From: Proteiniphilum acetatigenes DSM 18083 | GTDB lineage: Bacteria; Bacteroidota; Bacteroidia; Bacteroidales; Dysgonomonadaceae | Direction: 5' to 3' | Assembly (NCBI RefSeq): GCF_000380985.1 | Contig: NZ_KB905692.1 | Span: forward strand, 248,001-312,000 | Length of the DNA: 64,000 bases | Shown here: positions 1-64,000 of the stretch, in pieces | How the letters are laid out: every line of letters starts with the position of its first letter | Numbering within the stretch: position 1 is the stretch's first letter | The notes under the pieces: generated by a model | The model's input: the letters and a program-made list of their open reading frames with translations, nothing else | The model's database searches: none | Told to the model about the DNA's origin: nothing | Position numbers and translations under genes: made by a program

Positions 1-1986
1 TTTTTCTTTCGTTAATTCTTCAGGATTAAAATAGCAGACACCATTGAGTGAACCAAAGAAAAGGATGCCGTCTTCCCTGAGACTTGCAGCACCATTGGTA
101 AAATCTCCGATAGGAGTACCGTCCTGATGGTTGTAATTATTAAACTTTTCTCCGTTCCATAGTGAAATACCGGCATTGGTACTGATCCAGATATTTCCCA
201 TATCATCTTGCTGAATGGCACGAACAAAAGAGTTTTCAAGCCCTTGTTTTTCATCGTATGTTTCATATTGGCCTGTATCTTCCGTGTTTTTAAAATAAGC
301 CATTCCATTGCGTGTAGCAACCCATACCCCACCCCCGGAATCCATATAAAGATGATTGATGGCATTTGAGATGAAACCTTTATCCTTGACTATATTATCT
401 ACTAAATTATCATTGCCATCGAAAATAAATATTCCTTTTCCAAATGTTCCGATCCATAATTTCCCCTGTCTGTCATGGAGAACACTGTATATTGTTTTAT
501 CCTCTAACTGATCATTAATGTGGTTTTCCTTTTTTATCGTTCCACTCTGGTAGGAATATAATCCGGTTTCTGTGCCAATCCATATTTTCCCATCGATGTC
601 TTCATAGAATTCATGGACATACTCACCCCTTCCTTCAAAAGGAATATTTTTTATCTGATAATTATCCGGGTTCTGTTGAAGTATCTCGCCAGTAGATGTC
701 CCGAACCAGAGAATTCCGTTCCTATCGCTTCTTATCTTGTTGACATATACATTTGAACTTATTCCTGACAAATAAGGTTGAATATTGATTGCTCTCTTAA
801 CCTCATTATCCTGAAGAAGAATGACTTCATTTTCAGTTCCAACCCATAATCGCTGATTTTTATCCATGCATATATCCCATATCTGCCTTTCGTTTGTATC
901 TCTGTATTTATCAGTAGAATGTAAAAGTGTCTGAAAAACGGGAGGTTTATTACCGATAAAATCTATTCCCCGATTATAATGTCCAATCCATATATTATCG
1001 TAAGAATCCTGAAACAAAGATCTGACATTAGACGATGATAATCCGTAATGATCTTTTGTGACAGATATATTTTTGAATGTAACCATCCTGGGATCAAGTA
1101 ACGTAATATTGCTGAGATCAAGAACACTGATCCCCGCCATATCGGTACTGATCCACAAAGTACCGTCCTTCATTTCCCTGATATCGTAAATATAGTTTGC
1201 ACCCAAGGAATTAGGGTCGGACGGATTGTGCCTGAAAGTAATAAATTCTTCTGTCTGGGAATTAAACAGAGCCAATCCGTCATTGGTCCCAATCCAGATA
1301 TTTTTTTGATGGTCCATGTAAATGGTACGGACAGTATTACCCGGCAAACTTTTAGGATTTCCTGGTTGGTGGCGGATATTGCGTGCTGTTTTATTCTTTA
1401 TATCAATAATACTCAATCCGTCGAAGGCGTGGCCAATGTATAGACTACCCTTGCCATCATCGAAAGAACACCAGTTCTGGCTTTTCATCCCTTCTATATC
1501 CCGATCCAAAAAATGAGTTAATTGCCTGGTATTCTTATCATAATATTCAACTCCTACATGATAGTGAGTTATCCATATCCCCCCGTCCTCTGCATGTGAA
1601 AGGTGCGTAACATCATTAGTTGCCAGTCCTTCTTCTGTTCTATAATCTCTAAACGATTGCGAGGTACAATCGAAAATGCTGATCCCTTCGCGTTGTGAAC
1701 CTATCCATATCCGGTTTTCTTCATGGTCGTACAGCAATGCATTTAATTCATTACTTACGATATCTGAATTATTTTTTGTATATACCGTAAAATTCTTTCC
1801 GTCGAAACGGCTTAATCCCGATTCTGTTGCTATCCATATAAATCCCTGGCCATCTTGTGTAATGTCGGTAATATAACTGTTGGATAATCCGTCTTCTACG
1901 CCAAAATGTTTTAAAGCCTGCGATTGCCCCGATGCATTAAAAATAATTAATAACAGAGTATATAAAATAACTGCTTTTTTTAACAT
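1..1986 (-). CDS. Hybrid two-component system sensor (HTCS), N-terminal part, cut by window edge
   Basis: The frame stays open from an ATG at 1986 to base 1, giving 662 residues with no stop. It begins with a signal peptide (MLKKAVILYTLLLIIFNASG) and then carries repeated beta-propeller units of the Reg_prop type (for example GFIWIATESGLSRF near residue 55 and recurrent IWIGT/LWIGT motifs). The visible end (GVCYFNPEELTKEK) is where such proteins pass into the Y_Y_Y domain, so the membrane helix, kinase, receiver and AraC parts must lie left of the window. HTCS proteins sense a periplasmic oligosaccharide and activate an adjacent polysaccharide utilisation locus. Divergence from the SusC gene at 2406 makes that locus the likely target. 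The family call is firm; the ligand is unknown. Confidence 0.93.
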   Translation of the reverse strand, partial: MLKKAVILYTLLLIIFNASGQSQALKHFGVEDGLSNSYITDITQDGQGFIWIATESGLSRFDGKNFTVYTKNNSDIVSNELNALLYDHEENRIWIGSQREGISIFDCTSQSFRDYRTEEGLATNDVTHLSHAEDGGIWITHYHVGVEYYDKNTRQLTHFLDRDIEGMKSQNWCSFDDGKGSLYIGHAFDGLSIIDIKNKTARNIRHQPGNPKSLPGNTVRTIYMDHQKNIWIGTNDGLALFNSQTEEFITFRHNPSDPNSLGANYIYDIREMKDGTLWISTDMAGISVLDLSNITLLDPRMVTFKNISVTKDHYGLSSSNVRSLFQDSYDNIWIGHYNRGIDFIGNKPPVFQTLLHSTDKYRDTNERQIWDICMDKNQRLWVGTENEVILLQDNEVKRAINIQPYLSGISSNVYVNKIRSDRNGILWFGTSTGEILQQNPDNYQIKNIPFEGRGEYVHEFYEDIDGKIWIGTETGLYSYQSGTIKKENHINDQLEDKTIYSVLHDRQGKLWIGTFGKGIFIFDGNDNLVDNIVKDKGFISNAINHLYMDSGGGVWVATRNGMAYFKNTEDTGQYETYDEKQGLENSFVRAIQQDDMGNIWISTNAGISLWNGEKFNNYNHQDGTPIGDFTNGAASLREDGILFFGSLNGVCYFNPEELTKEK

Positions 1987-2019
1987 AATTAGAAGGAAGG
2001 AATGATCTATTATTCTTCA

Positions 2020-2027
2020 CAAATTTA
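2020..2027 (-). promoter_or_regulatory. -7 promoter box for the left HTCS gene
   Basis: Read on the minus strand this is TAAATTTG, a match to the Bacteroidota sigma factor -7 consensus TAnnTTTG. It lies 33 bases upstream of the ATG at 1986. No TTTG-type -33 element is visible at the usual 19-21 base spacing, so the call rests on the -7 box alone. Confidence 0.45.
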
Positions 2028-2405: not shown

Positions 2406-5400
2406 ATGTTCAAATTGAAAACATTTATTGTAAGTATCGTCATAAGCTTATGTTGCGTTATGACGTATGCTCAGAACAGCGTCACCGGGAATGTCTCCGA
2501 TATAAACGGCGAATCTGTTATCGGTGCGAGTATACTGGAGAAAGGCACCACCAACGGTACGGTTACCGATATCGATGGGAATTTCACCTTAAATGTATCG
2601 AAAGGTGCCACTCTTCAGATTAGCTATATTGGTTACACAACGCAGGAGGTGGTTGTAACCGGCCGGCCATTGACGATCATTCTGGAAGAAGATGCTCAAA
2701 CATTGGATGAGGTAGTGGTGGTTGCATACGGTGCACAAAAGAAAGTAACAGTAACCGGTGCTATTTCGTCCGTCAGTGGGAGTGATCTTATCAAATCTCC
2801 TACTGGGTCTATCGGTAACGCATTAGCCGGAAAATTAACAGGGGTCAGTACCGTTCAATATTCCGGAGAACCGGGTGCCGATGCTGCAGAAATTTATGTC
2901 CGGGGTATTACAACGTTAAACAGTTCGAGCCCCTTAGTACAAGTCGATGGGGTTGAAAGAGATTTTACACAGATAGACCCGAATGAAATTGAGAGCATAA
3001 CCATCCTTAAAGATGCCTCTGCTACCGCTGTTTTTGGAGTTCGTGGTGCCAACGGGGTAATTTTGGTAACAACGAAAAGAGGGAAAGAGGGGAAAGCAAA
3101 TATTTCGGTAACAACCTCTACCGGAATTACTGTTCCTACCCGATTGCTTGAGTTTGCCGACAGTTATCAATATGCAAGTTTCTATAATGAAGCCCAAATC
3201 AGGGATGGGGTGAATCCAAACAATGTGAAATTCTCTCCCGAGATGCTAACCGCATTTCAAACACAGTCCGATCCCTTATTGTATCCCAATATGGACTGGC
3301 TTGATTATATTCTTAAAGACTATGCCCAGCAATCGCAACACAATGTGAATATATCCGGAGGGAATAAATTTTTCCGCTATTTTGTTTCAGCGGGGATGTA
3401 CACCCAGGGTGGATTATTTAAAACATTCGATACCGGTTATGATTTCAATTTTGATTTTAAACGATACAATTACAGGGCAAATCTTGATTTTAACCTGTCA
3501 AAATCAACAGAGTTGTCATTAAATATAGGAGGTCGTGTGGAAGATAAGAACACTCCTATCTCCGCCGAGGATCAAAATCAGTTGTTCCGTCATTTATATT
3601 GGGCTACACCCTTTTCCGGGGCCGGTATCGTAGATGGAAGGTGGATCAAGACCAATCCTGATGTTATCCCGAATCCCGGAGCGGATGGATTAAATCCATA
3701 TTATGGTAGAGGATATAACAACAAGGTAGGCAATACATTGAACGTAGACGTTCAGTTAAAGCAAAAATTGGATTTCGTGACAAAAGGACTGTCTTTCAAT
3801 GTGAAAGGATCTTATAATAGTAGTTATGCCCAAACAAAATCGAGAAGTTCGTCGAAAGCATATTATGTGGCCGTAAAAAATGATGATGGATCAATGGGTT
3901 ACCGTAAATACGGAGAAGACGGAACTTTAGGTTATGGCGAATCATTTGATAAGGGACGTAACTGGTATTTCGAAACAAGTTTAAACTATAATACCACTAT
4001 AAATTCCGACCATAACCTGGGTGCATTACTGTTATATAACCAATCAAAATACTATTATCCGAGGACATTTACCGACCTCCCCAAAGGATACGTAGGAATG
4101 GTAGGGCGCCTTACTTATGATTATCTCTCCAAATACATGATCGAATTCAATATGGGATATAATGGTTCTGAGAACTTTGCACCTGGAAAACGATATGGCT
4201 TCTTTCCCGCAGGATCCATCGGATGGGTCGTTACCGAAGAGCCCTTTATGAAAGAAATAAAGGATTATATCTCATACCTGAAATTAAGGGCGTCATATGG
4301 AGTTGTAGGAAATGATAACACACAGGATCGAAGATTCATGTATATTGCTGATCCGTTTTATCTTGACGGATCGGGATACAATTTTGGAACAAATGTGAGT
4401 GGTAAGAGAGGTGGCGCCTATGAAGGAGCTAAATCTAATCCCGATGTAACCTGGGAGAAAGCATATAAGCAAAACCTGGGAGTAGACATGTACTTTTTGA
4501 ATGATCGTTTAATGACAACCTTCGATATATTCAAAGAAAACCGTAGAGATATTCTTGTGGTTCCATCTTCACTTCCCAGTTATATTGGCATGTCGCTGCC
4601 GGTACTGAATAATGGGATAGTCCACAGTCGCGGTTATGAGATCACTCTCAGATGGGATGATAAAATCGGAAACGATTTCAGGTATTGGATCAATCCCAAT
4701 TTATCATTTGCCAGAAATAAAATTGTAGAGCAAATGGAAGTCAGACCCAATGAAGATTATCTGTGGAGAACCGGGAAACCTATTAACCAGCCCTTTGGCA
4801 GAAAATTCTGGGGTTTTTATGATGAAACCGCCAATGAACGTTACAAAGCCCAATTTGGAAGGGATATTGCTGATCATTCCGTTGTATTAAAGAATGGAGA
4901 TGCGGTGTATGTAGACATAAATGAAGATGGTGTGATCAATGATGATGACAAGATAGCCATGGGATATACCAACGTTCCTGAATATGTAGTAGGCGCCAAT
5001 ATGGGCTTTGAATGGAAAGGCTTTGATTTGAGCATGCAATGGACGGGGGCGTGGAACACTTCCCGCATGTTACAGGAAACATTGAGAGAACCGCTTGGAG
5101 ATACCAACAATAAAGGTTTATTGCTGTATCAGTATGAAGATAGATGGACTGAGGAAACCGTCTCTACAGCAAAACTGCCCAGGGCAAGTATAACCAGCAA
5201 GGCGAATAATATTGTTGATTCCGACTTGTACCTCGTAGATGCTAAATACCTCCGGTTAAAGAGTCTTGAGGTCGGTTATAATTTCAATGCACCCTTTATG
5301 GAAAAAATGAGGCTAAACTCTTTACGGGTATATGCCAACGGGTATAATTTATTAACATTCGATGTCCTCAAGATCACGGATCCCGAATCGAGAACAAGCG

Positions 5401-5459
5401 ACAGGCCTAATTATCCATTAACCAGAGTATTTACCGTGGGATTGAAACTAGGGTTTTAA
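2406..5459 (+). CDS. SusC/RagA-family TonB-dependent glycan transporter (first pair)
   Basis: Predicted 1017-residue outer membrane transporter importing oligosaccharides in complex with a SusD lipoprotein. It has a signal peptide (residues 1-22, ending VMTYA), a CarboxypepD-regulatory-like beta-sandwich (about 24-97), a TonB-box-like stretch DEVVVVAYGAQKK from residue 101, a plug domain with the usual SITILKDASATAVFGVRGANGVILVTT-type signature around 197-222, and a long beta-barrel ending TVGLKLGF, the typical C-terminal barrel strand. Length is normal for SusC. The SusD partner follows after 21 bases, and a second SusC/D pair follows that, so two transporters are probably co-transcribed. 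Substrate cannot be read from the sequence; arabinogalactan fragments are inferred from the downstream GH43+GH16 enzyme. Confidence 0.97.
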   Translation: MFKLKTFIVSIVISLCCVMTYAQNSVTGNVSDINGESVIGASILEKGTTNGTVTDIDGNFTLNVSKGATLQISYIGYTTQEVVVTGRPLTIILEEDAQTLDEVVVVAYGAQKKVTVTGAISSVSGSDLIKSPTGSIGNALAGKLTGVSTVQYSGEPGADAAEIYVRGITTLNSSSPLVQVDGVERDFTQIDPNEIESITILKDASATAVFGVRGANGVILVTTKRGKEGKANISVTTSTGITVPTRLLEFADSYQYASFYNEAQIRDGVNPNNVKFSPEMLTAFQTQSDPLLYPNMDWLDYILKDYAQQSQHNVNISGGNKFFRYFVSAGMYTQGGLFKTFDTGYDFNFDFKRYNYRANLDFNLSKSTELSLNIGGRVEDKNTPISAEDQNQLFRHLYWATPFSGAGIVDGRWIKTNPDVIPNPGADGLNPYYGRGYNNKVGNTLNVDVQLKQKLDFVTKGLSFNVKGSYNSSYAQTKSRSSSKAYYVAVKNDDGSMGYRKYGEDGTLGYGESFDKGRNWYFETSLNYNTTINSDHNLGALLLYNQSKYYYPRTFTDLPKGYVGMVGRLTYDYLSKYMIEFNMGYNGSENFAPGKRYGFFPAGSIGWVVTEEPFMKEIKDYISYLKLRASYGVVGNDNTQDRRFMYIADPFYLDGSGYNFGTNVSGKRGGAYEGAKSNPDVTWEKAYKQNLGVDMYFLNDRLMTTFDIFKENRRDILVVPSSLPSYIGMSLPVLNNGIVHSRGYEITLRWDDKIGNDFRYWINPNLSFARNKIVEQMEVRPNEDYLWRTGKPINQPFGRKFWGFYDETANERYKAQFGRDIADHSVVLKNGDAVYVDINEDGVINDDDKIAMGYTNVPEYVVGANMGFEWKGFDLSMQWTGAWNTSRMLQETLREPLGDTNNKGLLLYQYEDRWTEETVSTAKLPRASITSKANNIVDSDLYLVDAKYLRLKSLEVGYNFNAPFMEKMRLNSLRVYANGYNLLTFDVLKITDPESRTSDRPNYPLTRVFTVGLKLGF

Positions 5460-5480
5460 ACTTAAAAATAAAATAATCGT

Positions 5481-7388
5481 ATGAGACGAAATATAAAATC
5501 ACTATTTATCTCCTTAACCATAGGAATAGCCATATTCTGTTCATCCTGCGTTGATGAGTTGAAATTTGGAGATAGTTTTTTAGAGAAAGCTCCCGGAGTG
5601 GATGTAACTCTTGACTCTGTTTTCGCCAAGGCCGAAAATGCACGTTACTTTTTATGGGACACCTATGCCAAGTTATACTACGGCCTACCGGTGTACTGGA
5701 ATAGTGTGGATAACAAAATGAATATGGGGATGTTTGAGACCCTGTCCGATACATGGCATAGCCATTTGAGTTGGGATGGAGTCAACAGATCCTATTATAA
5801 TGGAACGTATAACGCGAACAGGGAAGACACCAGTGACGATACCAAATTTGGTTTTTCCAAAGAAAACACATGGGAAGCTATCAGAAAAGCATGGTTGTTT
5901 ATTGAAAATATAGACCGGGTACCTGATATGCAACAGACTGAAAAGGAGAGACTGAAAGCCGAAGCGAAAGTAATTATCGCTTCCCGCTATTTCGATATGT
6001 TCCGCCATTTTGGTGGACTACCAATTATTGATAAAGCATACGACTTCTCTCTTGATGAATCATATTATCAAACCCCCAGAGCAACCGTTGAACAAACAGT
6101 AGAGTTCATGGCTGCCCTCCTGGACGATGCTGCAAATGTACTTCCATGGGCACTTGATGAGGGTGAAATATCTAACTGGGATGGCCGTTTCACGAAAGCG
6201 GCCGCGATGGGGCTAAAATGTAAAATATTACTGTTTGCAGCCAGCCCCCTGTTTAATGACACGGAACCTTATTCCACAGCGTCACCCCAGGATGCCGTTA
6301 CCAATTATAGTGTATGGTATGGAGGCTACAAACCGGAATTATGGGTAGAAACACTGAAAGCCTGTGAAGATTTTTTCAGGGAAGTCAATACTCAGGGACG
6401 CTACGGTTTGGTTCAACCAACTGCAGCGACTCCGTCAGCCTATAGGGAAGCTTTCAGAAAGGCGTACTATACCAGAGGAAGTGGAGGTGATAATCCGGAG
6501 CTATTGATATCGACAAGAGTACGATACACCTATGGAGATGATTATCAATGGGATTATTACTTCCCCCAGTCGGTAATGAACGGTGCATTCACACCTACAT
6601 TGGAATACGTTGATATGTTTTCGTTATCCGATGGAACCCCTTTTGACTGGAATAACCCGGATCATGTAGATCTGATTTTCTCCGACAGAGATCCCCGTCT
6701 GTTTGAAACAATATTGGTCAATAACGCATCCTATCAGGGACGTCAGGTTGAACTCTGGGTTGGTGGACGTGAAGCACAACAAGGACCAAAAACCGAACAG
6801 GGACAATTCGCAACCGGCTTCGGATTGTATAAATTTATCCTGGATTTTACTTCAGCACGGAATCGCCCTACCCTGTGGCCCTATTTGAGAATTGCTGAGA
6901 TCCATCTGATTTATGCAGAAGCATTAATGATAGCCGGTCGGACAGACGAAGCGATCAATGAAATTGACAAAGTTCGTGGCAGAGTAGGTTTGAATGGTTT
7001 GAGAGAGTCTAATCCCAATAACGATTACAGTAATCAATCCTTGCTGCTTGAAGCTATTTTGAATGAGCGTGCATGTGAACTCGGACTTGAAGATGTCAGG
7101 TTTTTTGATCTTATAAGGCATAAGAGGGCTCAGGATTTCAAAAAAGTCCTGCATGGATTAAGAATTTATCGTTTGGACGAGAACGGCAATGTCGTGGAGG
7201 AGTCATGGTCGGACAAACCCGCCAATGAAAGAGGACCTCGTCCCACAGAATTTAGATACGAGAAATTTCAACTTGAAAATTCAAGGCGCTCCTGGTGGAC
7301 AAATTTCAATTCCAAATGGTATTTGTCTGCATTTCCCACGCTGGAGGTGAATAAAGATTATGGATTAACACAAAATCCGGGATGGTAA
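5481..7388 (+). CDS. SusD/RagB-family surface lipoprotein (first pair)
   Basis: Predicted 635-residue glycan-binding lipoprotein that caps the SusC transporter. The signal peptide ends in a lipobox (IFCSSC, lipidated Cys23), and the protein ends LTQNPGW, the usual SusD C-terminus. The helical RagB/SusD core shows typical segments such as RYFDMFRHFGGLPII (about 174-188) and AEIHLIYAEALMIAGRTDEAINEIDKVRGR (about 475-504). The ATG is preceded by an A-rich leader, AAAATAAAATAATCGT, repeated exactly before two other unrelated starts in the window. At 635 residues it is somewhat longer than many SusD proteins. Confidence 0.96.
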   Translation: MRRNIKSLFISLTIGIAIFCSSCVDELKFGDSFLEKAPGVDVTLDSVFAKAENARYFLWDTYAKLYYGLPVYWNSVDNKMNMGMFETLSDTWHSHLSWDGVNRSYYNGTYNANREDTSDDTKFGFSKENTWEAIRKAWLFIENIDRVPDMQQTEKERLKAEAKVIIASRYFDMFRHFGGLPIIDKAYDFSLDESYYQTPRATVEQTVEFMAALLDDAANVLPWALDEGEISNWDGRFTKAAAMGLKCKILLFAASPLFNDTEPYSTASPQDAVTNYSVWYGGYKPELWVETLKACEDFFREVNTQGRYGLVQPTAATPSAYREAFRKAYYTRGSGGDNPELLISTRVRYTYGDDYQWDYYFPQSVMNGAFTPTLEYVDMFSLSDGTPFDWNNPDHVDLIFSDRDPRLFETILVNNASYQGRQVELWVGGREAQQGPKTEQGQFATGFGLYKFILDFTSARNRPTLWPYLRIAEIHLIYAEALMIAGRTDEAINEIDKVRGRVGLNGLRESNPNNDYSNQSLLLEAILNERACELGLEDVRFFDLIRHKRAQDFKKVLHGLRIYRLDENGNVVEESWSDKPANERGPRPTEFRYEKFQLENSRRSWWTNFNSKWYLSAFPTLEVNKDYGLTQNPGW

Positions 7389-7415
7389 CCGGCTTATAAG
7401 AAAAAAAATAGTCAT

Positions 7416-10415: not shown

Positions 10416-10441
10416 TGATAACATATTAATAAGATAACAAC

Positions 10442-12366: not shown

Positions 12367-13254
12367 ATGAAGATAAAATCATATATCAGTTATTGCTTAG
12401 GTGCAATACTATGTGTATCATCTATAATAGGCTGTAGTGGAGATTATGACTCTTTTGTCGACTCCGACCAGAAGATAACGGGAAAACCGTCACCTGTTTC
12501 AAATATAACATCAGACGAACTGCCGGGGCAGATTAAATTAAACTGGGATATTCCGGCCGATTCAAACTTCTATTTTTTGAAGATAACCTATTTTGATCAT
12601 TTGACACAAACAGAAAAAACAAAAGTTGCGTCTGTATATACCGATGAACTTATTATCGACAATACAAGAGCTAAATTCGGAGATTATCAATTCGCTTTCC
12701 AGACTTTCAACAGCAATAATGAAGGAGGTGATATTACATCATTAAGTGCAAAATCCGGCATAGCTCCGGCGATTGAAACTATAACTTCTACTAAGTTGAA
12801 ACTGGACAACAGCCAGTTCAGTACCGATAATCAGGAACCAAGTGAGGGCCCCATCAGCAATCTTAACGATGGAAATCCAAATACGTTTTTCCATACACGA
12901 TGGTCTTCCCCACAGGTACCGCTTCCACAGTATATACAAGTTGACTTATATGAGCCGCTTACCAATTTTTCGTTCTCGTATCAGAACAGAAACGGAGCAC
13001 AGGTTGGCCCCGAACATCTGAAAGTATTGATAAGCAACGACGACACTGACTGGACTGAAATAGCCGAATTCACATCGGGGTTACCTTCTGCTTCGCAGGC
13101 AATCTATAATTCTCCTGTGATCAGGAATTCTACTCCGTTTACATATGTCCGTTTCTCAGTAACAAAGACATATGGCGATAGAAATTACTTTAACTTAGCA
13201 GAATTCATGTTATACGATGTGCAGATCGATATTTATGATCCGGAATCTGACTAA
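12367..13254 (+). CDS. Surface glycan-binding lipoprotein with DUF4959-like and F5/8 type C (discoidin) domains
   Basis: Predicted 295-residue lipoprotein (lipobox SSIIGC, Cys23). Residues about 37-135 resemble the fibronectin-like DUF4959 domain found in PUL lipoproteins (GKPSPVSNITSDELPGQIKLNW). Residues about 145-290 resemble a discoidin/F5-8C carbohydrate-binding module (NLNDGNPNTFFHTRWSSP, QYIQVDLYEPL, YVRFSVTKTYGDRNYFNLAEFMLYD). It lacks catalytic motifs, so a surface glycan-binding role is the simplest reading. Position between the SusCD pairs and the GH43+GH16 enzyme supports this. The domain call is by recognition of motifs, not a search. Confidence 0.78.
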   Translation: MKIKSYISYCLGAILCVSSIIGCSGDYDSFVDSDQKITGKPSPVSNITSDELPGQIKLNWDIPADSNFYFLKITYFDHLTQTEKTKVASVYTDELIIDNTRAKFGDYQFAFQTFNSNNEGGDITSLSAKSGIAPAIETITSTKLKLDNSQFSTDNQEPSEGPISNLNDGNPNTFFHTRWSSPQVPLPQYIQVDLYEPLTNFSFSYQNRNGAQVGPEHLKVLISNDDTDWTEIAEFTSGLPSASQAIYNSPVIRNSTPFTYVRFSVTKTYGDRNYFNLAEFMLYDVQIDIYDPESD

Positions 13255-21379: not shown

Positions 21380-21395
21380 TTAAGTAACATTTGAT

Positions 21396-43977: not shown

Positions 43978-44084
43978 TTTTAGAGGATGGAGAACAGGAG
44001 CTAGCATACGCAAAATGGTTTGTGACAGCCATAAACCGAAATCTATTGTCTTCACTGAATACTATAAACCTTTCAATTGTAAAT

Positions 44085-48924: not shown

Positions 48925-48953
48925 TAAAAATATCTCCTTTTTTGTGTTTTGCG

Positions 48954-48961
48954 CAAAGGTA
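48954..48961 (-). promoter_or_regulatory. -7 box for the AraR-type gene
   Basis: On the minus strand this reads TACCTTTG, a match to TAnnTTTG, 30 bases upstream of the chosen ATG at 48924. It also argues against the longer upstream start, which would lie before the promoter. No -33 element is visible. Confidence 0.55.
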
Positions 48962-49079
48962 CAATATATTTCACCAATCTCCTGTATTTGAATATATGTA
49001 ATACCACTGCATACGATTATCATGAAAAGATCATCTTGATATAATAACCTTAGTATGAGGTAAAAATGAATATCTTCAA

Positions 49080-49138
49080 TTTTATGTTTTTAAACATAAA
49101 AAAATAAGTGTACGTTATTACACTTATTATTAACTTTG
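49080..49138 (+). promoter_or_regulatory. araR operator: Two adjacent palindromes and -7 box upstream of GH97; probable AraR operator
   Basis: Palindrome 1 (49080-49101) has perfect 10-bp arms TTTTATGTTT/AAACATAAAA around TT. Palindrome 2 (49103-49128) has perfect 10-bp arms AATAAGTGTA/TACACTTATT with a 6-base spacer. Two bases later TAACTTTG (49131-49138) matches the -7 consensus. Palindrome 2 covers the core promoter, where a repressor would block polymerase. A degenerate copy of its arms lies before GH51. Assigning palindrome 2 to AraR is inference from position and symmetry. Confidence 0.6.
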
Positions 49139-55719: not shown

Positions 55720-57261
55720 ATGAAATCAAAAAGAACATTCCAAGTGGCACTACTACTGCTTATCGGTAGTATATCAATCTCGGCCCAGAACCGATTGATC
55801 ATCGAGGCCGACCGTGGACAGAACACCATCAACCGGCATATCTACGGCCACTTTTCCGAACATCTGGGACGCTGTATTTATGGCGGCTATTGGGTAGGTG
55901 AAGACTCGTCAGTTCCCAATACACGCGGTATCCGTAACGATGTGGTGCAGGCACTGAAAGATATCCGTATTCCCAACCTTCGCTGGCCGGGTGGTTGCTT
56001 TGCCGACGAATATCATTGGATGGACGGTATAGGTCCCCGTGAGGATCGCCCTAAAATGATCAATACCCATTGGGGAGGAGTTGTGGAAGATAACAGTTTC
56101 GGTACGCACGAATTTCTCGACCTGTGCGAACAACTCGACGCAGAACCCTATATCAGCGGAAATGTAGGCAGCGGCACAGTAGAGGAGATGTCGAAATGGA
56201 TCGAATATATCACTTTCGATGGTGAAAGCCCAATGGCTAATTTGCGGCGCAAGAACGGTCGTGAAGAACCTTGGAAAGTGAAATTCTGGGGTGTCGGGAA
56301 CGAAAGCTGGGGTTGCGGCGGTAATATGACGCCTGACTACTATTCCGACCTGTATCGCCATTACGCCACCTATTGCCGCAATTACGGCGACAATCGTCTT
56401 TACCGCATTGCCTGCGGTGCTAACGGGGGTGATTATAACTGGACGGAGACTGTGATGAAGAACGCTGCCCGCCATATGCAGGGCTTATCACTGCATTACT
56501 ATACTGTACCCAGGAATTGGGGTGATAAAGGTTCGGCAACCAATTTCGATGAAGAGGAATATTTCACTACTATCGAAAAAACACTGTTCATGGACGAACT
56601 GATCACCAAACATTCGGCCATCATGGACCGTTACGACCCGCAAAAGAGAGTAGGAATGATTATTGATGAATGGGGCACATGGTATAATGTGGAGCCCGGT
56701 ACTAACCCTGGTTTTCTCTATCAGCAGAACACCTTGCGCGATGCCATCGTAGCGGGTATCAACCTGAACATTTTCAACAACCACAGTGAGCGGGTACAGA
56801 TGGCCAATCTGGCCCAGACAGTGAACGTGCTGCAGGCTGTGATACTTACCGACGAGGAAAAGATGATACTTACTCCTACTTACTGGGTGTTCCATCTCTA
56901 CAAGGTACATCAGGATGCGACGCTTTTGCCCATTTCCTTTACCAGCAATAAGTACCGCCAGGGTGACAAAGAGATAGACGCGGTAAGCGTTTCCGCTTCT
57001 AAAAATGCCGGGGGTAAAATTCATATCACGCTGGTAAATGCCGATCCTAACAATGAACAACGTATCTCAACACAGTTGGTTGGTGCATCGGCAAAGAAGG
57101 TAAGTGGTAAAATGCTTACCTCCGCAAAGATAAACGATTACAATTCTTTTGAGCAACCGTCTAAAGTAACGGTGAGTGACTTCAAAGGCGCTTCGCTCTC
57201 CAATAGCGGTCTTTCGGTGGTATTGCCGCCTAAATCGGTGGTATTGATCGAACTTCAATAA
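55720..57261 (+). CDS. GH51 alpha-L-arabinofuranosidase, secreted
   Basis: Predicted 513 residues with signal peptide ([22 protein letters not shown]). GH51 layout: TIM barrel with [18 protein letters not shown]-type N-terminus, [25 protein letters not shown], acid/base E195 ([11 protein letters not shown]) and nucleophile E317 ([10 protein letters not shown]), then a C-terminal beta-domain. The enzyme removes terminal arabinofuranose from arabinan, arabinoxylan or arabinogalactan side chains. It heads the arabinose catabolic cluster, separated from araD by 193 bases that include a large stem-loop. Confidence 0.93.
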
Positions 57262-57287
57262 ATTATACAACTAAATCCTCGACTGAC

Positions 57288-57398
57288 GATATTTTGTGAC
57301 CCATTATAGCTCTCATTCGCTAAAAGAGTAGAACTCGTTTCACTCAGACAGCTACTCTTTTTACGCTCCTTGCAAGCTATGGGTTCCCACAAAATATC
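57288..57398. other. 111-nt imperfect stem-loop between GH51 and araD
   Basis: Outer arms GATATTTTGTG/CACAAAATATC (57288-57298, 57388-57398) pair perfectly over 11 bp and continue with ACCCAT/ATGGGT and TAGCT/AGCTA. An inner stem AAAAGAGTAG/CTACTCTTTT (57322-57331, 57352-57361) closes a 20-base loop. The element may be an mRNA processing structure, a terminator/attenuator, or a miniature inverted-repeat element. No ORF is present. The 56 bases after it lead to the araD ATG with no clear promoter. Confidence 0.6.
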
Positions 57399-57454
57399 TA
57401 AATGTCTCCGCTTTAGTGGTATATATACGAAACTTCTATAAATAAGAGTAGACA

Positions 57455-58144
57455 ATGAGCATACAAGAACTGAAACAGCAGGTATTCCAGGCTAACCTGG
57501 ATCTGGTAAAACACGGTCTGGTGATCTTTACCTGGGGAAATGTAAGCGGTATCGACCGGGAAAAAGGATGGGTGGTTATCAAACCCTCCGGGGTGTCGTA
57601 CGACGACATGAAAGCCGAAGATATGGTAGTCGTGGACCTGGAGGGCAACATAGTGGAAGGCAGTCTGAAACCTTCGTCCGACACACCCACCCATGTGGAA
57701 TTATACAAAGCATTCCCTTCCATAGGTGGAATTGTGCATACCCATTCAACCTATGCCACTGCGTGGGCACAGGCCGGATGTGACATCCCCAACATAGGTA
57801 CCACCCATGCCGATTACTTCAGCGGGGATATACCCTGTACCCGCGATATGACTGAGCCCGAGGTGAAAGGCGAGTATGAAAAAGAGACCGGTGCCGTTAT
57901 TATCGAGCGTTTCAGTGAACTCAACCCGGCCCATATCCCCGGCGTACTGGTGAAAAATCACGGGCCTTTCTCCTGGGGAAAGGATCCGCACGAGGCAGTT
58001 CATAATGCCGTCGTAATGGAACAGGTGGCAAAAATGGCCTTTATCGCCTATCAGGTCAACCCGAACCTCACCATGAACGAATTGCTTATCCAAAAGCATT
58101 TCTTCAGGAAACACGGACCCGGAGCATATTACGGACAGAAATAA
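57455..58144 (+). CDS. araD: L-ribulose-5-phosphate 4-epimerase
   Basis: 229 residues, close to the E. coli enzyme's 231. Class II aldolase/epimerase fold with zinc ligands H95 and H97 ([12 protein letters not shown]) and H169 ([12 protein letters not shown]), plus the substrate motif [20 protein letters not shown]. It converts L-ribulose-5-phosphate to D-xylulose-5-phosphate, the last arabinose-specific step, in the cytoplasm. It precedes araA by 92 bases and belongs with araA and araB below. Confidence 0.95.
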
Positions 58145-58178
58145 TATTTCAGATTCAAAATTCAAGATTTCATAACTC

Positions 58179-58213
58179 TTAATTTTTAATTCTTAACTTT
58201 TAATTTTTAATTC
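58179..58213 (+). repeat. Short AT-rich tandem repeat between araD and araA
   Basis: TTAATTTTTAATTC occurs at 58179-58192 and 58200-58213, a 21-base period, inside an AT-rich 92-base gap. Such repeats are frequent between genes in Bacteroidota; no function is assigned. Confidence 0.6.
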
Positions 58214-58236
58214 ATAATTCATAAACGTTCAATATT

Positions 58237-59739
58237 ATGCAATTCAAAGATCAGGAAGTATGGTTTGTTACAGGAGCGCAACTCCTGTACGGGGGCGACG
58301 CGGTAGTAACCGTCAATGCCCATTCGGAAGAAATGGTCAAAGGGCTGAATGACGCGGGACTACTCCCCGTAAAAGTGGTTTATAAAGGAACTGCCAATTC
58401 ATCGCCCGAAGTGGAGAAAATATTCAAAGAAGCCAATACGGATGAAAAATGTATCGGTGTGATCACCTGGATGCACACTTTTTCTCCTGCCAAGATGTGG
58501 ATCAGAGGTTTACAAAATTTCAGGAAACCGTTAATGCATCTACATACCCAGTTTAACAAGGAGATACCCTGGAATGAGATCGACATGGATTTCATGAACC
58601 TGAACCAGTCAGCACACGGCGACCGTGAATTTGGACATATTACAAGCCGTTTGCGAATGCCCCGCAAGGTTTTGGTTGGCTATTGGAAAGATGAAGAGAC
58701 GCTGCGGAAAATTGCGTCATGGATGCGGGTTTGTGCCGGTTGGGCTGACGCTCAAGGGATGTTGATCATCCGCTTTGGAGATAATATGAACAATGTGGCT
58801 GTAACGGACGGAGACAAGGTAGAAGCGGAAATACGTCTGGGATACCATGTCGACAATGCACCTATCGCAACCCTGGTTCCGTATGTGGAAGCAGTTACAG
58901 ATGACGAAATCGATGCCCTTGTTTCCGAATATGCACAAATATACGACTTTGCCGATGATTGCAGGAAAGGCGCCGAAAAACATCAGTTTGTACGCGATGC
59001 CGCAGCACAGGAAATAGGATTGCGCCGTTTCCTCCAGGATAAGGGTGCCAAAGCCTTTACAACCAGCTTTAACGAGTTGGAAGGCATGAAACAGTTGATG
59101 GGGTTCGCTTCTCAACGACTGATGGCCGAAGGCTATGGATTTGGAGCGGAAGGCGACTGGAAAACTGCTGCCCTTGTACGTACCATGTGGGTAATGGGCC
59201 AGGGTTTACCCGGTGGACAATCGTTCCTCGAAGATTATACCCTGAATTTCGATGGGGAGAACAGTACCATCCTGCAATCGCATATGCTCGAGATCAATCC
59301 CGATATTACAGGAACGAAACCACGCATTGAAGTGCATTTCCTTGGGATAGGTGATGCCCGTACCTGTGCCCGTCTGGTATTCCAGGCGCATGAAGGGAAA
59401 GGGGTGGCTGCCACTATCGTGGATATGGGTAACCGATTCCGCATGATTGTCAATGAGGTGGAAGTGGTAAAACCGCAAGCTTTACCCAAATTGCCGGTTG
59501 CCTGCGCATTATGGAAGCCAATGCCAAACTTGGAGGTCGGAGCCGGTGCATGGATATTGGCCGGAGGAACGCATCACACCAGTTTCTCTTTTTCAGTGAC
59601 CACCGAAATGCTGGAAGATTATGCCGAAATAGCCGGTATCGAGCTGGTTACTATCGATAAAGATACAACTATCAACAACTTCAAGTTCGAACTCAAAGTC
59701 AATGAAGTTTACTATTTATTGAATAAAGCGCTGCAGTAA
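58237..59739 (+). CDS. araA: L-arabinose isomerase
   Basis: 500 residues, the same length as E. coli AraA. It is recognisable throughout, starting VWFVTGAQLLYGGDAVVTVNAHSEEMV, with MHTFSPAKMWIRGLQNFRKPLMHLHTQFNKEIPW, GYGFGAEGDWKTAALVRTMWVM and EDYTLNF. It converts L-arabinose to L-ribulose in the cytoplasm. It lies between araD and a GH43 gene in one strand-consistent cluster. Confidence 0.97.
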   Translation: MQFKDQEVWFVTGAQLLYGGDAVVTVNAHSEEMVKGLNDAGLLPVKVVYKGTANSSPEVEKIFKEANTDEKCIGVITWMHTFSPAKMWIRGLQNFRKPLMHLHTQFNKEIPWNEIDMDFMNLNQSAHGDREFGHITSRLRMPRKVLVGYWKDEETLRKIASWMRVCAGWADAQGMLIIRFGDNMNNVAVTDGDKVEAEIRLGYHVDNAPIATLVPYVEAVTDDEIDALVSEYAQIYDFADDCRKGAEKHQFVRDAAAQEIGLRRFLQDKGAKAFTTSFNELEGMKQLMGFASQRLMAEGYGFGAEGDWKTAALVRTMWVMGQGLPGGQSFLEDYTLNFDGENSTILQSHMLEINPDITGTKPRIEVHFLGIGDARTCARLVFQAHEGKGVAATIVDMGNRFRMIVNEVEVVKPQALPKLPVACALWKPMPNLEVGAGAWILAGGTHHTSFSFSVTTEMLEDYAEIAGIELVTIDKDTTINNFKFELKVNEVYYLLNKALQ

Positions 59740-59759
59740 AAATAATTAATTTCCAATTT

Positions 59760-60791
59760 ATGAAGAGAAATACATTCTTTCTTCCATTTGTATTTTTCCT
59801 CTTTGTTTTTTTACCGCAGGGTAAAGCTGCAGACCAATTACCGGAAAGGATCGGAGTACATGACCCGGTAATGGCCAAACAAGACGATACCTACTACCTC
59901 TTCACTACAGGTAGGGGTATCGCTGTCTGGTCATCGACCGACATGAAAACATGGAAACGGGAGAAAGCGGTATTTGCAGAAGCACCTCAGTGGGCTGTCG
60001 ATGCTGTACCTACTTACCGGGGACATACCTGGGCACCGGATATCAGCTACCATAACGGATTGTATTATCTCTACTATTCGGTATCAGCCTTTGGGAAAAA
60101 TACATCCTGCATGGGCGTGGTGACCAACAAGACGCTTCATCCCGATGATCCCGATTTTGAGTGGGTAGATCACGGAGCCGTTATCTGCTCTACGCCCGAT
60201 GTCGATAATTGGAATGCAATCGATCCCAATCTTATTTTTGATGAAAACGGAGTTCCTTACCTGTTTTTCGGTTCGTTCTGGGATGGACTGCAGATGGTCA
60301 GGCTTACCGATGACCTCAAATCCTGCTATTCGGGTGAAGAGCCGGTTACCATTGCCTCACGCAAAAAAGAGAGACGACAGGAGAATCCGCCGGCAATCGA
60401 TAACAATCCGGTGGATGCCGGAGGAAATGCGATAGAAGCTCCTTTTGTTTTCAGGAAAGACAACTACTACTACCTGTTTGCATCCATAGACTATTGTTGT
60501 AAGGGAGTGGAAAGTACCTACAAGATGATATACGGAAGGTCAGACAAGATCGATGGGCCCTATTATGACAAAGAGGGAAAAGATCTCCTTTTTGGTGGAG
60601 GGACAATCCTGATGGAAGGGGATGAAAACTGGCATGGTGTGGGACATAATGCGGTCGTCAGTTTCGACGGTGAAGATTATCTTGTATTCCATGGATACGA
60701 TGCTAACGACGAAGGGCGGTCCAAACTGCGTATTTTCCGGCTCTCATGGGATCAGAGCCAGTGGCCCGGCGTAGAAGAGGCCATCTACTAA
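59760..60791 (+). CDS. GH43 arabinan-type hydrolase, secreted
   Basis: Predicted 343 residues with signal peptide (MKRNTFFLPFVFFLFVFLPQGKA). The five-bladed propeller has the three GH43 acidic residues: D35 (IGVHDPVM), D155 (NAIDPNL) and E226 (NAIEAPFV). The pattern (GHTWAPDISYHNGLYYLYYSVSAFGKNTSCMGV; WHGVGHNAVVSF) is that of endo-1,5-alpha-L-arabinanases and related arabinofuranosidases. It sits 20 bases after araA and 88 before araB, placing an extracytoplasmic enzyme inside the catabolic operon. Exact substrate is open. Confidence 0.88.
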   Translation: MKRNTFFLPFVFFLFVFLPQGKAADQLPERIGVHDPVMAKQDDTYYLFTTGRGIAVWSSTDMKTWKREKAVFAEAPQWAVDAVPTYRGHTWAPDISYHNGLYYLYYSVSAFGKNTSCMGVVTNKTLHPDDPDFEWVDHGAVICSTPDVDNWNAIDPNLIFDENGVPYLFFGSFWDGLQMVRLTDDLKSCYSGEEPVTIASRKKERRQENPPAIDNNPVDAGGNAIEAPFVFRKDNYYYLFASIDYCCKGVESTYKMIYGRSDKIDGPYYDKEGKDLLFGGGTILMEGDENWHGVGHNAVVSFDGEDYLVFHGYDANDEGRSKLRIFRLSWDQSQWPGVEEAIY

Positions 60792-60879
60792 AATGGGTTG
60801 CTAAACCGGCCCCTAATTCAACACTTCAGTAGTGAATAAATCAGACAAAACAAACTAAAAATAAAAAGGATAAGAAGAG

Positions 60880-62538
60880 ATGAGTAAATACGTCATAGGA
60901 TTAGATTACGGCACGGACTCATGTCGTGCCATCATTGCCGATGCCTTGAGCGGTAAGGAAATATCTACCGCGGTGAAATATTATCCGCGTTGGAAACAGG
61001 GGAAGTATTGTGATCCCAAGACCAACCGTTACCGTCAGCATCCGCTCGATTATATCGAGGTATTGGAAGAGAGTATCCGGGAAGCTTTAACAAAAGCACC
61101 CGCAGGAACAGCAGAAAATGTAGTGGGGATGGCTTTCGATACTACAGGATCAACGCCTGTGTTTACTGACGAAGCAGGAATCCCGTTGGCTTTACGACCT
61201 GAATTTGCCGAAAACCCCAATGCGATGTTCGTTCTCTGGAAAGACCATACCTCCATAAAAGAGGCGGCCGAAGTAAACGAACTGGCAAAGAAATGGGAAA
61301 TTGATTATACCGCCTATGAAGGAGGTATTTATTCCTCCGAATGGGTATGGGCCAAGATGCTGCATATTCTGCGTGAAGATGAGCAGATAAGGAAAGCGGC
61401 TTATTCATGGGCTGAACACTGTGACTGGATGCCTGCGCTGATCACCGGGAACTCCAAACCGGAAACGATGCCGAGAAGCCGTTGCGCTGCAGGACATAAA
61501 GCGATGTGGCATGCTTCGTGGGACGGACTGCCTTCCGAAGAGTTCCTGACGGCGCTGGATCCGCTGCTTGCCGGCTTCCGTTCTCATTTGTATAAAGAAA
61601 CCTACCCGAGTAATGTAAAAGTAGGATACCTGACTCCCGAATGGGCCGAACGGCTGGGATTGACTACCAAAGTGGCCGTGGCCGTGGGAGCGTTCGACTG
61701 CCACATGGGTGCTGTAGGAGCACAGATCAAGCCGGGAGATTTCGTACGTGTGATCGGGACATCCACCTGCGATATCATGGCGGTGCCTTATGAGGAGATC
61801 GGCGACAAATTGATCCCGGGTATCTGCGGACAGGTAGACGGGTCGGTGATCCCGGGAATGGTCGGACTGGAAGCCGGGCAATCAGGCTTCGGCGATATTT
61901 ACGCCTGGTTTAAACAGGTATTGGAATGGCCTCTTACACAGCTCGTTTCGAAATCGAACCTGCTGGATATGGAGACTAAAGAAAAGCTGATTACAGAAAT
62001 CGCAGATGCGATCATCCCCGAATTGACCAGGGAAGCCGAAAAAGTGCCGCCCGGCGAAAGCACCCTTATCGCTACTGACTGGATGAACGGACGTCGTACA
62101 CCCGATGCCAATCAACTGTTGACAGGTTCTATTTGTGGATTGACGTTGGGAAGCACCGCACCGCTGATCTTCAGGGCACTGGTAGAAGCAACTGCTTACG
62201 GTTCCAAAGCGATCGTCGATCGTTTTCTGGAAAATGGTGTCGAGATCAAAGAAGTGATCGGTATAGGCGGTATCTCTTTAAAATCTCCTTTTGTGATGCA
62301 GACATTATCCGATGTGTTGGGTATGCCGATCAAAGTGGCAAAGACCGAGCAGGCATGCGCCTTCGGAGCCGCTATGTTCGCAGCCGTTGCAGCAGGTGTA
62401 TATGAGAAAGTGGAGGATGCCCAGGATGCGATGGGACAAGGATTTGCTTTCGAATACCATCCGAACGCTGAAAATCACGCCGTATATATGGAGTTGTATA
62501 AGAAATACCAACAAATCGGCAAGTTCACTGAAAACTAA
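60880..62538 (+). CDS. araB: Ribulokinase
   Basis: 552 residues of the FGGY kinase family (E. coli AraB is 566). The N-terminal phosphate motif is GLDYGTDSCRAIIAD. Other marks are AFDTTGSTPVFTDEAG, EWVWAKMLHILRED, WAEHCDWMPALITG, GTSTCDIM and the C-terminal GIGGISLKSPFVMQTLSDVLGMPIKV ATP-binding region. It phosphorylates L-ribulose to L-ribulose-5-phosphate. With araA and araD it completes the arabinose to xylulose-5-phosphate pathway. Confidence 0.95.
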   Translation: MSKYVIGLDYGTDSCRAIIADALSGKEISTAVKYYPRWKQGKYCDPKTNRYRQHPLDYIEVLEESIREALTKAPAGTAENVVGMAFDTTGSTPVFTDEAGIPLALRPEFAENPNAMFVLWKDHTSIKEAAEVNELAKKWEIDYTAYEGGIYSSEWVWAKMLHILREDEQIRKAAYSWAEHCDWMPALITGNSKPETMPRSRCAAGHKAMWHASWDGLPSEEFLTALDPLLAGFRSHLYKETYPSNVKVGYLTPEWAERLGLTTKVAVAVGAFDCHMGAVGAQIKPGDFVRVIGTSTCDIMAVPYEEIGDKLIPGICGQVDGSVIPGMVGLEAGQSGFGDIYAWFKQVLEWPLTQLVSKSNLLDMETKEKLITEIADAIIPELTREAEKVPPGESTLIATDWMNGRRTPDANQLLTGSICGLTLGSTAPLIFRALVEATAYGSKAIVDRFLENGVEIKEVIGIGGISLKSPFVMQTLSDVLGMPIKVAKTEQACAFGAAMFAAVAAGVYEKVEDAQDAMGQGFAFEYHPNAENHAVYMELYKKYQQIGKFTEN

Positions 62539-62577
62539 CTGTTTCGTTAATCGAATATATACTTAAAAAAACATCTT

Positions 62578-64000
62578 ATGAATTGGAATTCACATGAATT
62601 TATTTGGCTGGATTGGTTAATTATCGTTATTGGAATTTTAGCTGTAACCTGGGCTGTATGGCGTTCTATACAGAAAGATAAACGTTCGCAACAAGGTCCT
62701 GACAGTGAAGATTACCTGTTTGGTAAAGGTGAGCCATGGTATATTATTGGTGCGGCTATCTTTGCCGCCAATATCGGTTCGGAACACCTGGTAGGCCTTG
62801 CCGGTACCGGTGCAAAGGCAGGAGTCGGTATGGCACACTGGGAAATGCAGGGATGGATGATACTCATCTTAGGGTGGCTTTTTGTACCCTTCTATCAACT
62901 GTTGAATATTAAGATGGGAAAGATCATCACAATGCCCGATTTCCTTAAATACCGCTACACACCTACAACCGGTTCGTGGCTCTCTATCATTACACTTATA
63001 GCCTATGTGCTGACAAAGGTGAGTGTCACGGCATTCACCGGTGGTATCTTTATGCAAAGCCTTCTTGGCTTGCCTTTCTGGTTCGGGGCTATCGGCCTGA
63101 TCGTTTTAACAGGGATCTTTACCGTCCTGGGTGGCATGAAAGGGGTGATGACGCTGTCGGCAATTCAAACACCTATACTGATCCTCGGTTCGTTCCTTGT
63201 GTTGTTTCTGGGATTGTCGGCACTTGGAGGCGGCAATATCGCTGAAGGTTGGACTGCAATGATTGAACATGCCAAAACGCTGAACGTAGGAGAAGATGGT
63301 GTCGCATACGGTACCAACCGTATGTTCCATTTCAATACAGGCGACCCGTTGTATGATGATTATCCCGGTTTTTGGGTATTTATCGGGGCATCGATCATCG
63401 GTTTTTGGTATTGGTGTACTGACCAGCACATCGTTCAACGTGTACTTGGACAACGTAAGGGAGAACCTGCTGACGTAGTGATGAAACGTGCACGCAGAGG
63501 AACCATTGCTGCTGGTTATTTCAAATTATTGCCTGTATTTATGTTTTTGATACCGGGGATGGTAGCCGCTGCATTGGCAGCACGTCCCGATAGCGGTTTC
63601 TCGTTAAGCGATCCTGATACCGCCTTTGGTTCCATGGTCAAGTTCGTATTGCCGGCCGGTGTAAAAGGGATTGTTACCATAGGCTTTATATCGGCATTGG
63701 TTGCCTCTTTGGCGGCTTTCTTCAATTCCTGTGCCACGCTGTTTACAGAAGACTTTTACAAGCCGATGTTCAAAAACAAAAGCGAAGCCACCTACGTTCT
63801 GGTAGGCCGCATCGCCACAGTCGTGGTTGTGATACTGGGTATTGTATGGATACCTATCATGATGAGTCTCGGCAGTCTTTACGATTATCTGCAAGGTATT
63901 CAGTCACTCCTCGCCCCCGCAATGGTGGCTGTATTTGCGTTGGGTATATTTTCCAAGAGAATTACACCAAAAGCCGGAGAGGCCGGGATGATAGTGGGTT
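62578..64000 (+). CDS. Sodium/sugar symporter (SSS family), probable arabinose importer, cut by right edge
   Basis: The frame is open from the ATG at 62578 to the window end (474 codons). Multiple membrane helices of the solute:sodium symporter fold are visible (LDWLIIVIGILAVTWAVW, then many more). SSS signatures include FAANIGSEHLVGLAGTGAKAG, MPDFLKYRY and GFWYWCTDQHIVQRVLGQRKG. It starts 39 bases after araB, so L-arabinose uptake across the inner membrane is the likely role. The C-terminus is missing from this window. Confidence 0.93.
   Translation, partial: MNWNSHEFIWLDWLIIVIGILAVTWAVWRSIQKDKRSQQGPDSEDYLFGKGEPWYIIGAAIFAANIGSEHLVGLAGTGAKAGVGMAHWEMQGWMILILGWLFVPFYQLLNIKMGKIITMPDFLKYRYTPTTGSWLSIITLIAYVLTKVSVTAFTGGIFMQSLLGLPFWFGAIGLIVLTGIFTVLGGMKGVMTLSAIQTPILILGSFLVLFLGLSALGGGNIAEGWTAMIEHAKTLNVGEDGVAYGTNRMFHFNTGDPLYDDYPGFWVFIGASIIGFWYWCTDQHIVQRVLGQRKGEPADVVMKRARRGTIAAGYFKLLPVFMFLIPGMVAAALAARPDSGFSLSDPDTAFGSMVKFVLPAGVKGIVTIGFISALVASLAAFFNSCATLFTEDFYKPMFKNKSEATYVLVGRIATVVVVILGIVWIPIMMSLGSLYDYLQGIQSLLAPAMVAVFALGIFSKRITPKAGEAGMIVG

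Follow-up and report, generated by a model that had tools for sequence, protein, structure and literature searches.

The arabinogalactan polysaccharide utilization loci (PULs) of Bacteroides thetaiotaomicron, which we take to be BT0262-0290 and BT3674-3687, are among the described systems closest to the DNA analysed here, a 64,000-bp stretch (the window) of the genome of Proteiniphilum acetatigenes DSM 18083, a member of the Dysgonomonadaceae. Another is the L-galactose pathway of Phocaeicola (Bacteroides) vulgatus, reportedly laid out by Hobbs in 2014 as BVU_0219/0220/0222; BVU_0220 is presumably a member of it. The accessible part of PMC12632266 names BVU_0219 as L-galactose dehydrogenase and BVU_0222 as L-galactonate dehydrogenase. 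Available sections of two further papers deal with the porphyran PUL of B. plebeius and BpGH29, an exo-alpha-L-galactosidase represented by the structures 7snk and 7ljj (PMC12316285), and with the Bacteroides AraR regulon, in which GH51, GH43, GH2 and GH97 genes are named among those regulated (PMC4666351). The window shares features with each of these systems.

The earlier note on this DNA had read its 60 kb as one arabinogalactan super-locus working together. We favour a different reading, to which we assign a probability of about 0.64: the window is a side-by-side patchwork of at least four separately inherited PUL blocks, including a beta-1,3-galactan and arabinose core, a GH30 PUL, an L-galactose block and a block of rhamnogalacturonan I (RG-I) type. 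It is probably not one unit, as relatives combine the blocks differently, one block differs in age, and a single AraR operator was found in 104 kb. What stood of the super-locus is the link between beta-1,3-galactan and arabinose; a GH30_5 enzyme, GH106 as cap remover, fucose and the single unit found no support. We consider it very improbable that the window is one type II arabinogalactan unit of 60 kb with fucose caps, in which a GH30_5 enzyme acts on beta-1,6-galactan and the enzymes at 36-39 kb oxidise fucose.

Coordinates below are window positions. The genome holding the window (C1:248001-312000; 4.78 Mb) is denoted G000, with contigs C1, C2, C6 and C15, and its relatives G0xx, all within a family panel of 101 genomes; L numbers denote retrieved neighbourhoods or loci. 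Genes were assigned from a map of open reading frames (ORFs), a Pfam scan of 30 of the 33 main ORFs, and NCBIfam searches with the remaining three and more.

The proposed galactan and arabinose core and the GH30 PUL

At the centre of the core is a GH43_24-GH16 fusion (13335..15308, plus strand; Pfam, PDB and residue evidence), a predicted exo- and endo-beta-1,3-galactanase in which the GH16 half would be the endo-acting one; we call it GH43_16. For each of the catalytic and subsite residues given for BT3683 in the available part of PMC7939473 (Glu367, Asp490, Cys538, Trp541, Gln577) the window protein has a counterpart (E118, D241, C289, W292, Q328), always shifted by 249 positions; the comparison was made by position, not by alignment. 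The best PDB match is 6eug (526 bits). We therefore assign the GH43 half to GH43_24, in line with the GH43_24-like beta-1,3-galactan enzyme of the earlier note. The core also has a beta-galactosidase-like GH2 (27751..30246, plus strand; Pfam, with GalA/GalB-like NCBIfam matches under cut-off).

The arabinose part of the core begins with GH97 (49191..51131, plus strand), nearest to PDB 5xfm (887 bits; next match 132 bits), which is annotated as an alpha-glucosidase in the PDB listing and which we take to be a beta-L-arabinopyranosidase. A run of genes on the plus strand at 55720..63999 (Pfam/NCBIfam) comprises GH51 (55720-57261), araD, araA and araB (within 57455-62538, each above its model cut-off), an AbnA-like GH43 (59760-60791, below cut-off) and a sodium:solute symporter (SSS) family transporter (from 62578). 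The order from GH51 to the SSS transporter is kept, with some genes absent, in nine relatives (G053, G054, G055, G058, G059, G063, G072, G078, G087). GH43_24-GH16 and GH2 would gradually break down the beta-1,3-galactan chain in type II arabinogalactan, and the AraR-controlled operon (GH97, GH51, GH43, araDAB, Na+ symporter) would remove and consume L-arabinose.

Panel genomes with a GH43_16 match (E<=1e-200) number 22 of 101, those with a close GH97 orthologue (>=72%) 18 of 101, and those with both 11. In nine of these 11 (G000, G053, G054, G055, G058, G059, G072, G078, G087) the two lie on the same contig, at most 100 kb apart, and GH43_16 is thus found near the GH97-GH51-araDAB operon. A GH2 orthologue (82-87%) adjoins the GH43_16 match in G054, G055, G059, G072, G078 and G087. 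This linkage, together with the adjoining GH2, indicates that the arabinogalactan-arabinose link which the earlier note had proposed predates this strain; the linkage of GH43_24-GH16, GH2, GH97, GH51 and araDAB across the genus also speaks for a single unit.

With the B. thetaiotaomicron arabinogalactan PULs the window shares a GH43_24 enzyme with the BT3683 positions, joined to GH16 and surrounded by SusCD pairs and hybrid two-component system regulators (HTCS). It differs in that the galactan block lies near araDAB in its genus, and in the order of the fusion, which is GH43-GH16 here and GH16-GH43 in Bacteroides faecis (L067). Both orders occur among 80 kept loci, 31 with GH43-GH16 and 18 with GH16-GH43 (one locus may count repeatedly), and the Flavobacterium rows among those listed have GH43 and GH16 as two separate adjacent genes. 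On a GH43 tree, which contains long branches, the GH16-GH43 label needs 6 changes, at least 3 of them forced by well-supported branches.

Within the core lies a second PUL, made up of an SGBP-like (surface glycan-binding) protein, SusC3/SusD3 and a GH30_4-like GH30 (19847..27730, plus strand; GH30 itself at 26147-27730). The earlier note had made this enzyme a GH30_5 beta-1,6-galactanase and had named assignment to another subfamily as evidence that would count against its reading. A single-sequence PDB search gave 3clw at 252 bits, followed by 7n6h (84) and 24td (44). With a profile of 12 orthologues, 3clw matched at 342 bits over nearly the full length, 7n6h (GH30_10) at 118, xylanases at 63-69 (three of them at 68-69), and 24td at 63 across the N-terminal half. 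The available part of PMC13431644 files 3clw under GH30_4 and 24td under GH30_5; at the sequence level the window enzyme is thus nearest to GH30_4, at 342 bits against 63 for GH30_5, which also argues against the single unit. The nearest structure, 3clw, is itself uncharacterised. In the accessible portions of two papers the known activity of GH30_4 is beta-D-fucosidase (PMC5966431, PMC11058611), with two such enzymes characterised (PMC5966431). The literature searched yielded no paper on arabinogalactan and Bacteroides naming both subfamilies.

GH30 is present in 14 of 101 genomes (G000, G053, G063 and 11 others), and SusC3, SusD3 and GH30 are linked in all 11 of the others; we therefore regard them as a PUL of their own. 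GH30 and GH43_16 co-occur in eight genomes. That they are neighbours in G000 and G053 favours a single unit, and that they come within 100 kb in these two of the eight alone argues against it.

The probable L-galactose block

Between the core genes lies an 11.1-kb block (30252..41381), its borders read against G053. It holds an AraC-family regulator (30248..31198, minus strand; Pfam), a candidate L-galactose sensor; SusC4/SusD4 (31494..36126, plus strand; Pfam), located in the part of the block that G063 matches at 99.75%; and five enzyme genes on the plus strand. These encode a predicted L-galactose dehydrogenase of the aldo-keto reductase (AKR) type (36156..37088; PDB 7lh6), a Zn-dependent dehydrogenase predicted to be an L-galactonate 5-dehydrogenase (37081..38109; Pfam; IolM 190 bits, PRK10083 170 bits), an Amidohydrolase-2 protein predicted to be an L-galactonolactonase (38111..39034; Pfam; NCBIfam fuconolactonase at 37 bits, cut-off 400), a mutarotase of the rhaM family (39122..39508; PF05336, 90.9 bits) and a GH29 predicted to be an exo-alpha-L-galactosidase (39511..41091; PDB 7snk/7ljj).

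The earlier note had assigned fucose caps and two catabolic pathways to the window. The second pathway is there, in the form of the AKR, the Zn-dehydrogenase and the amidohydrolase (36156-39034); its fucose identity is not borne out. Among PDB chains the AKR matches 7lh6, named L-galactose dehydrogenase, at 438 bits and four chains of the same name at 269-324, the next match being at 94. GH29 matches the exo-alpha-L-galactosidase structures 7snk and 7ljj at 632 and 621 bits, the next group reaching 287; 7snk was deposited under an alpha-L-fucosidase name. Judged from these matches, the ‘fucose’ genes most likely encode an L-galactose pathway, and the closeness of AKR and GH29 to L-galactose enzymes is a further argument against the single arabinogalactan unit, in whose favour it can be said that Pfam files GH29 as alpha-L-fucosidase.

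Another alternative lets the enzymes at 36-39 kb burn L-fucose non-phosphorylatively, through a fucose dehydrogenase, a fuconolactonase and oxidation of fuconate. Cross-activity is likely in any case, L-fucose being the 6-deoxy form of L-galactose, and the family name of GH29 and the weak fuconolactonase match (37 bits) point the same way. The AKR scores are 269-438 bits to L-galactose dehydrogenases against at most 94 to other chains, Pfam and NCBIfam scans named no fuconate dehydratase gene in the block, and oxidation of fuconate at C5 would lead nowhere familiar, as we know of no intermediate that it gives. Two genes of the fucose-isomerase family (PF07881) lie elsewhere in G000, and fucose is therefore likely to be metabolised along another path. 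On balance, we find the L-fucose alternative quite unlikely and retain L-galactose as the likely substrate.

AKR matches were found in 36 of the 101 family genomes. There are 36 full-length matches outside G000, of which 31 neighbourhoods were counted, with L190 (G043) and four others outside the count; partners were called at >=50% (Zn-dehydrogenase, amidohydrolase), >=60% (AraC) and >=30% (GH95). In 30 of 31 neighbourhoods the AKR is accompanied by both the Zn-dehydrogenase and the amidohydrolase. The one deviating case, L132 (G011), has AKR, mutarotase and GH29, with neither dehydrogenase nor amidohydrolase within the stretch. Other partners are rarer: the mutarotase in 5/31, the AraC orthologue in 3/31 (G063 among them), and GH95, a BT_1020-like protein and GH78 in 4/31 each. 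BT_1020 we take to be an enzyme for rhamnogalacturonan II (RG-II), a polymer that carries L-galactose. A DUF5703_N-type protein was also seen near the trio in nine of the 31 neighbourhoods (L125, L136, L139-L143, L152, L153; Pfam for L125), and we would guess at a glycoside enzyme with some connection to L-galactose.

In P. vulgatus, as here, an AKR L-galactose dehydrogenase, an amidohydrolase and a Zn-type dehydrogenase are adjacent. The window differs in that its trio is part of a SusCD block which also carries GH29 and an AraC regulator, and in that G000 has UxaE and neither a GD_AH_C hit nor a clear UxaB. The window GH29 belongs to the BpGH29 group (632 bits to 7snk), as does the enzyme of the B. 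plebeius porphyran PUL in the accessible part of PMC12316285; the difference is that general Pfam/NCBIfam scans of the window named no sulfatase and, besides the GH16 half, no agarase or porphyranase.

As proposed here, the block with its own AraC and SusCD would import L-galactose-bearing oligosaccharides, GH29 would cut off terminal alpha-L-galactose, and mutarotase, L-galactose dehydrogenase, lactonase and L-galactonate 5-dehydrogenase would convert L-galactose to D-tagaturonate. An exit through UxaB/UxaA was considered and set aside: a search of G000 for a GD_AH_C altronate dehydratase gave 0 hits (the same search was positive in 5 of 14 control genomes), and no clear UxaB was found in G000, where the single PF08125 match is MtlD-like and under NCBIfam cut-offs. 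G000 does have UxaE (PF16257, 182.8 bits, cut-off 27.1, profile positions 76-462 of 475), which overlaps the end of UxaC and precedes a short-chain dehydrogenase (SDR) on contig 2 (L193:8242-11910). With no GD_AH_C, no clear UxaB, and UxaC/UxaE present, carbon may leave via tagaturonate epimerase, and D-tagaturonate would exit through the UxaC/UxaE cluster toward D-fructuronate. A UxaC-UxaE-SDR cluster accompanied by no GD_AH_C hit suggests a hexuronate route via tagaturonate epimerase in Bacteroidota.

The borders of the block are sharp. The G053 alignment extends to 30,251 and restarts at 41,382; the block is missing there, and a GH43 and a BNR_4 protein take its place. Compared with G063, positions 30,252-41,197 show 27 mismatches in 10,946 bp (99.75%), while the left flank is at 88-95% per kb (93.6% over 15,382-19,601 and 92.8% over 21,394-26,062; 88-94% in the kilobases closest to the border), identity climbing to 100% near 30,300. 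At the other end, a SusCD block is inserted in G063 after 41,197; 41,212-41,833 then follows at 99.4%, and beyond 41,833 a lone receptor gene is unmatched save for a short piece near 43,800. The identity jump is most simply explained by a recent transfer that brought the block into one lineage or the other. The genes from SusC4 to GH29 are flanked by an intergenic repeat of 37 bases (89% identical; 31315-31351 and 41126-41162); a search of the window with a 21-base pattern from the two copies found no third. A further, inverted 98-bp copy (96%) lies in G063 between SusD3 and GH30 (L122:15873-15970). Recombination or a mobile element is a possible source of the repeat.

Taken as a whole, the block may be a dedicated, recently exchanged PUL for terminal alpha-L-galactose of land-plant polysaccharides, with AraC, SusCD, GH29, the oxidative pathway and a UxaE exit; we advance this full version tentatively, giving it somewhat less than even odds. 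What the analysis adds is the proposed assignment to L-galactose, the apparent exchange of the block and a likely exit through UxaE; every part has known relatives. The literature searched contained no report joining L-galactose, arabinogalactan protein and polysaccharide utilization, which is not proof that there is none. L-galactose is a scarce yet diagnostic sugar of plant walls. Its genes are easily mistaken for fucose genes, as happened in this window, and the AKR-dehydrogenase-lactonase trio could be used as a marker of the pathway.

RG-I-type genes, predicted AraR control and the window as a whole

Downstream of the L-galactose block lie a GH43 with weak similarity to alpha-arabinofuranosidases (44022..45038, plus strand; PF04616; NCBIfam 77.6 bits, cut-off 500) and a GH106, a predicted RG-I-type alpha-L-rhamnosidase (45388..48183, plus strand), which scores 1469 bits with the model NF049897 AlphaRhamBT4145 (cut-off 1300). 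The earlier note had GH106 remove caps from arabinogalactan. That it passes the BT4145 model points to pectin and away from such a cap, and its BT4145 type tells against the single arabinogalactan unit as well. The block would be of RG-I (pectin) type.

L-galactose-ended RG-I side chains occur in seed mucilages, and the blocks might all converge on one pectin, assembled separately and cooperating on RG-I with arabinan and arabinogalactan side chains, some of them L-galactose-ended. GH106 itself supports such convergence, BT4145 being described as RG-I-specific in the available part of PMC8002723, as do the AbnA-like GH43 and GH51 of the window and the sharing of one region by galactan, arabinan and rhamnose enzymes in G000 and G053. 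Among the 33 main ORFs scanned, however, there was no RG-I lyase or GH28. GH106 and close GH97 are found together in 12 genomes. The distance between them is at most 100 kb in three (G000, G053, G063) and large in G078; in the other eight they are on separate contigs, where breaks may hide linkage. A common operator, discussed below, was not found either. We judge convergence on one pectin unlikely; separately inherited blocks in a patchwork remain our preferred reading.

An arabinose repressor of AraR/NrtR type (48235..49023, minus strand) is recognised by PF21906 and PF19368 above cut-off (AraR_C PF19368 40.6 bits, cut-off 23.8; NCBIfam NtrR 139.8 bits, under its cut-off of 400). In the gap between araR and GH97 lies a predicted AraR operator, the perfect palindrome AAGTGT-N8-ACACTT (49106..49125). 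A scan of 104 kb of the G000 region at 0-1 mismatches gave no second copy, which is one more point against a single unit. Perfect palindromes also lie between araR and GH97 in G053, G055 and G063; of the regions that contain araR, 4 of 4 have the palindrome, and of those that lack araR, 0 of 6. G063 has extra copies, a perfect one before GH51, a perfect one beside HTCS1, and one with a single mismatch; the copy beside HTCS1 fits the single-unit view. The repressor and the GTGT...ACAC palindrome resemble the Bacteroides AraR regulon as it appears in the accessible part of PMC4666351, where the B. thetaiotaomicron half-sites are 7 bases apart against 8 in the window, and the window differs further in that araR is divergent from GH97.

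A single AraR regulon was rejected: the B. thetaiotaomicron pattern GTGT-N7-ACAC gave 0 exact copies and 5 at one mismatch, against 14.7 expected by chance. In the 104-kb scan the predicted AraR site was absent at the SusCD, GH30 and L-galactose operons, and no operator common to the blocks was found with the AraR-type patterns scanned, HTCS sites not having been searched. Most blocks have their own regulator. The sharp-bordered L-galactose block illustrates stepwise assembly of a PUL neighbourhood, in which adjacency should not be read as co-function.

Several observations weigh against the patchwork and the L-galactose reading within it. The lactonase and the Zn-dehydrogenase are under every NCBIfam cut-off shown, though their families fit; the mutarotase family is filed under L-rhamnose; and the sequence similarity network cluster of BpGH29 also includes xyloglucan fucosidases, according to the available part of PMC11189522. 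Close GH29 is found in seven genomes, beside AKR in four (G000, G063, G011, G043), with no AKR near GH29 in G072 or the retrieved part of G058, and with G082 not covered. The absence of the block from G053 could be loss. In the core, GH43_16 and GH97 are on separate contigs in G067 and G074, the G059 and G072 matches to GH43_16 span the GH43 half alone, and that of G058 is partial. In the shuffle comparison, which covered the AraR palindrome at two mismatches, its 4 occurrences do not exceed the 1-9 of the shuffles. The GH29-AKR linkage of four in seven and the two GH43_16 matches lacking the GH16 half slightly lowered our confidence in the best explanation.

Further genes of the window

The gene inventory of the earlier note is borne out by the ORF map and the Pfam and NCBIfam scans, including the four SusCD pairs (2406-7388, 7416-12133, 21396-26062, 31494-36126). 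The three HTCS and two further regulators it had counted correspond to two whole HTCS, one cut by the window edge, AraC and AraR/NrtR. Its list had omitted the mutarotase, AKR, Zn-dehydrogenase and amidohydrolase, and a lone TonB-dependent-receptor-like protein. Four SusD per 64 kb is nothing unusual in G000, which has 85 SusD sites (87 rows minus two short split rows) and other 64-kb spans with 4 or 5 SusD beginning at C6:231264, C6:241068, C15:19731 and C1:395195. PUL genes run on past both window edges. Scans of the window with Rfam (at gathering score) and for tRNA genes gave 0 matches and 0 genes, respectively.

The HTCS cut by the left edge (1-1986) is, in its flank part, 54% identical to HTCS1 (15392..19480, minus strand; Pfam). 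Two tandem pairs, SusC1/D1 and SusC2/D2 (2406..12133, plus strand; Pfam), come next; SusC2/D2 are at 90-93% identity in G053, and at this position G063 has different SusC/SusD genes (26-36%) and, genome-wide, no GH43_16 match at E<=1e-200. A candidate surface-binding lipoprotein with DUF4959 and F5/8 type C domains (12367..13254, plus strand; Pfam) has a 95% copy in G053. HTCS2 (51149..55414, plus strand; Pfam) is 100% identical in G053 and absent at the same position in G063. The lone TonB-dependent-receptor-like protein (41387..43909, minus strand; Pfam), of plug type, has no SusD partner; it is at 96% in G053 and looks broken in G063, where it aligns in part and is represented by two overlapping short ORFs.

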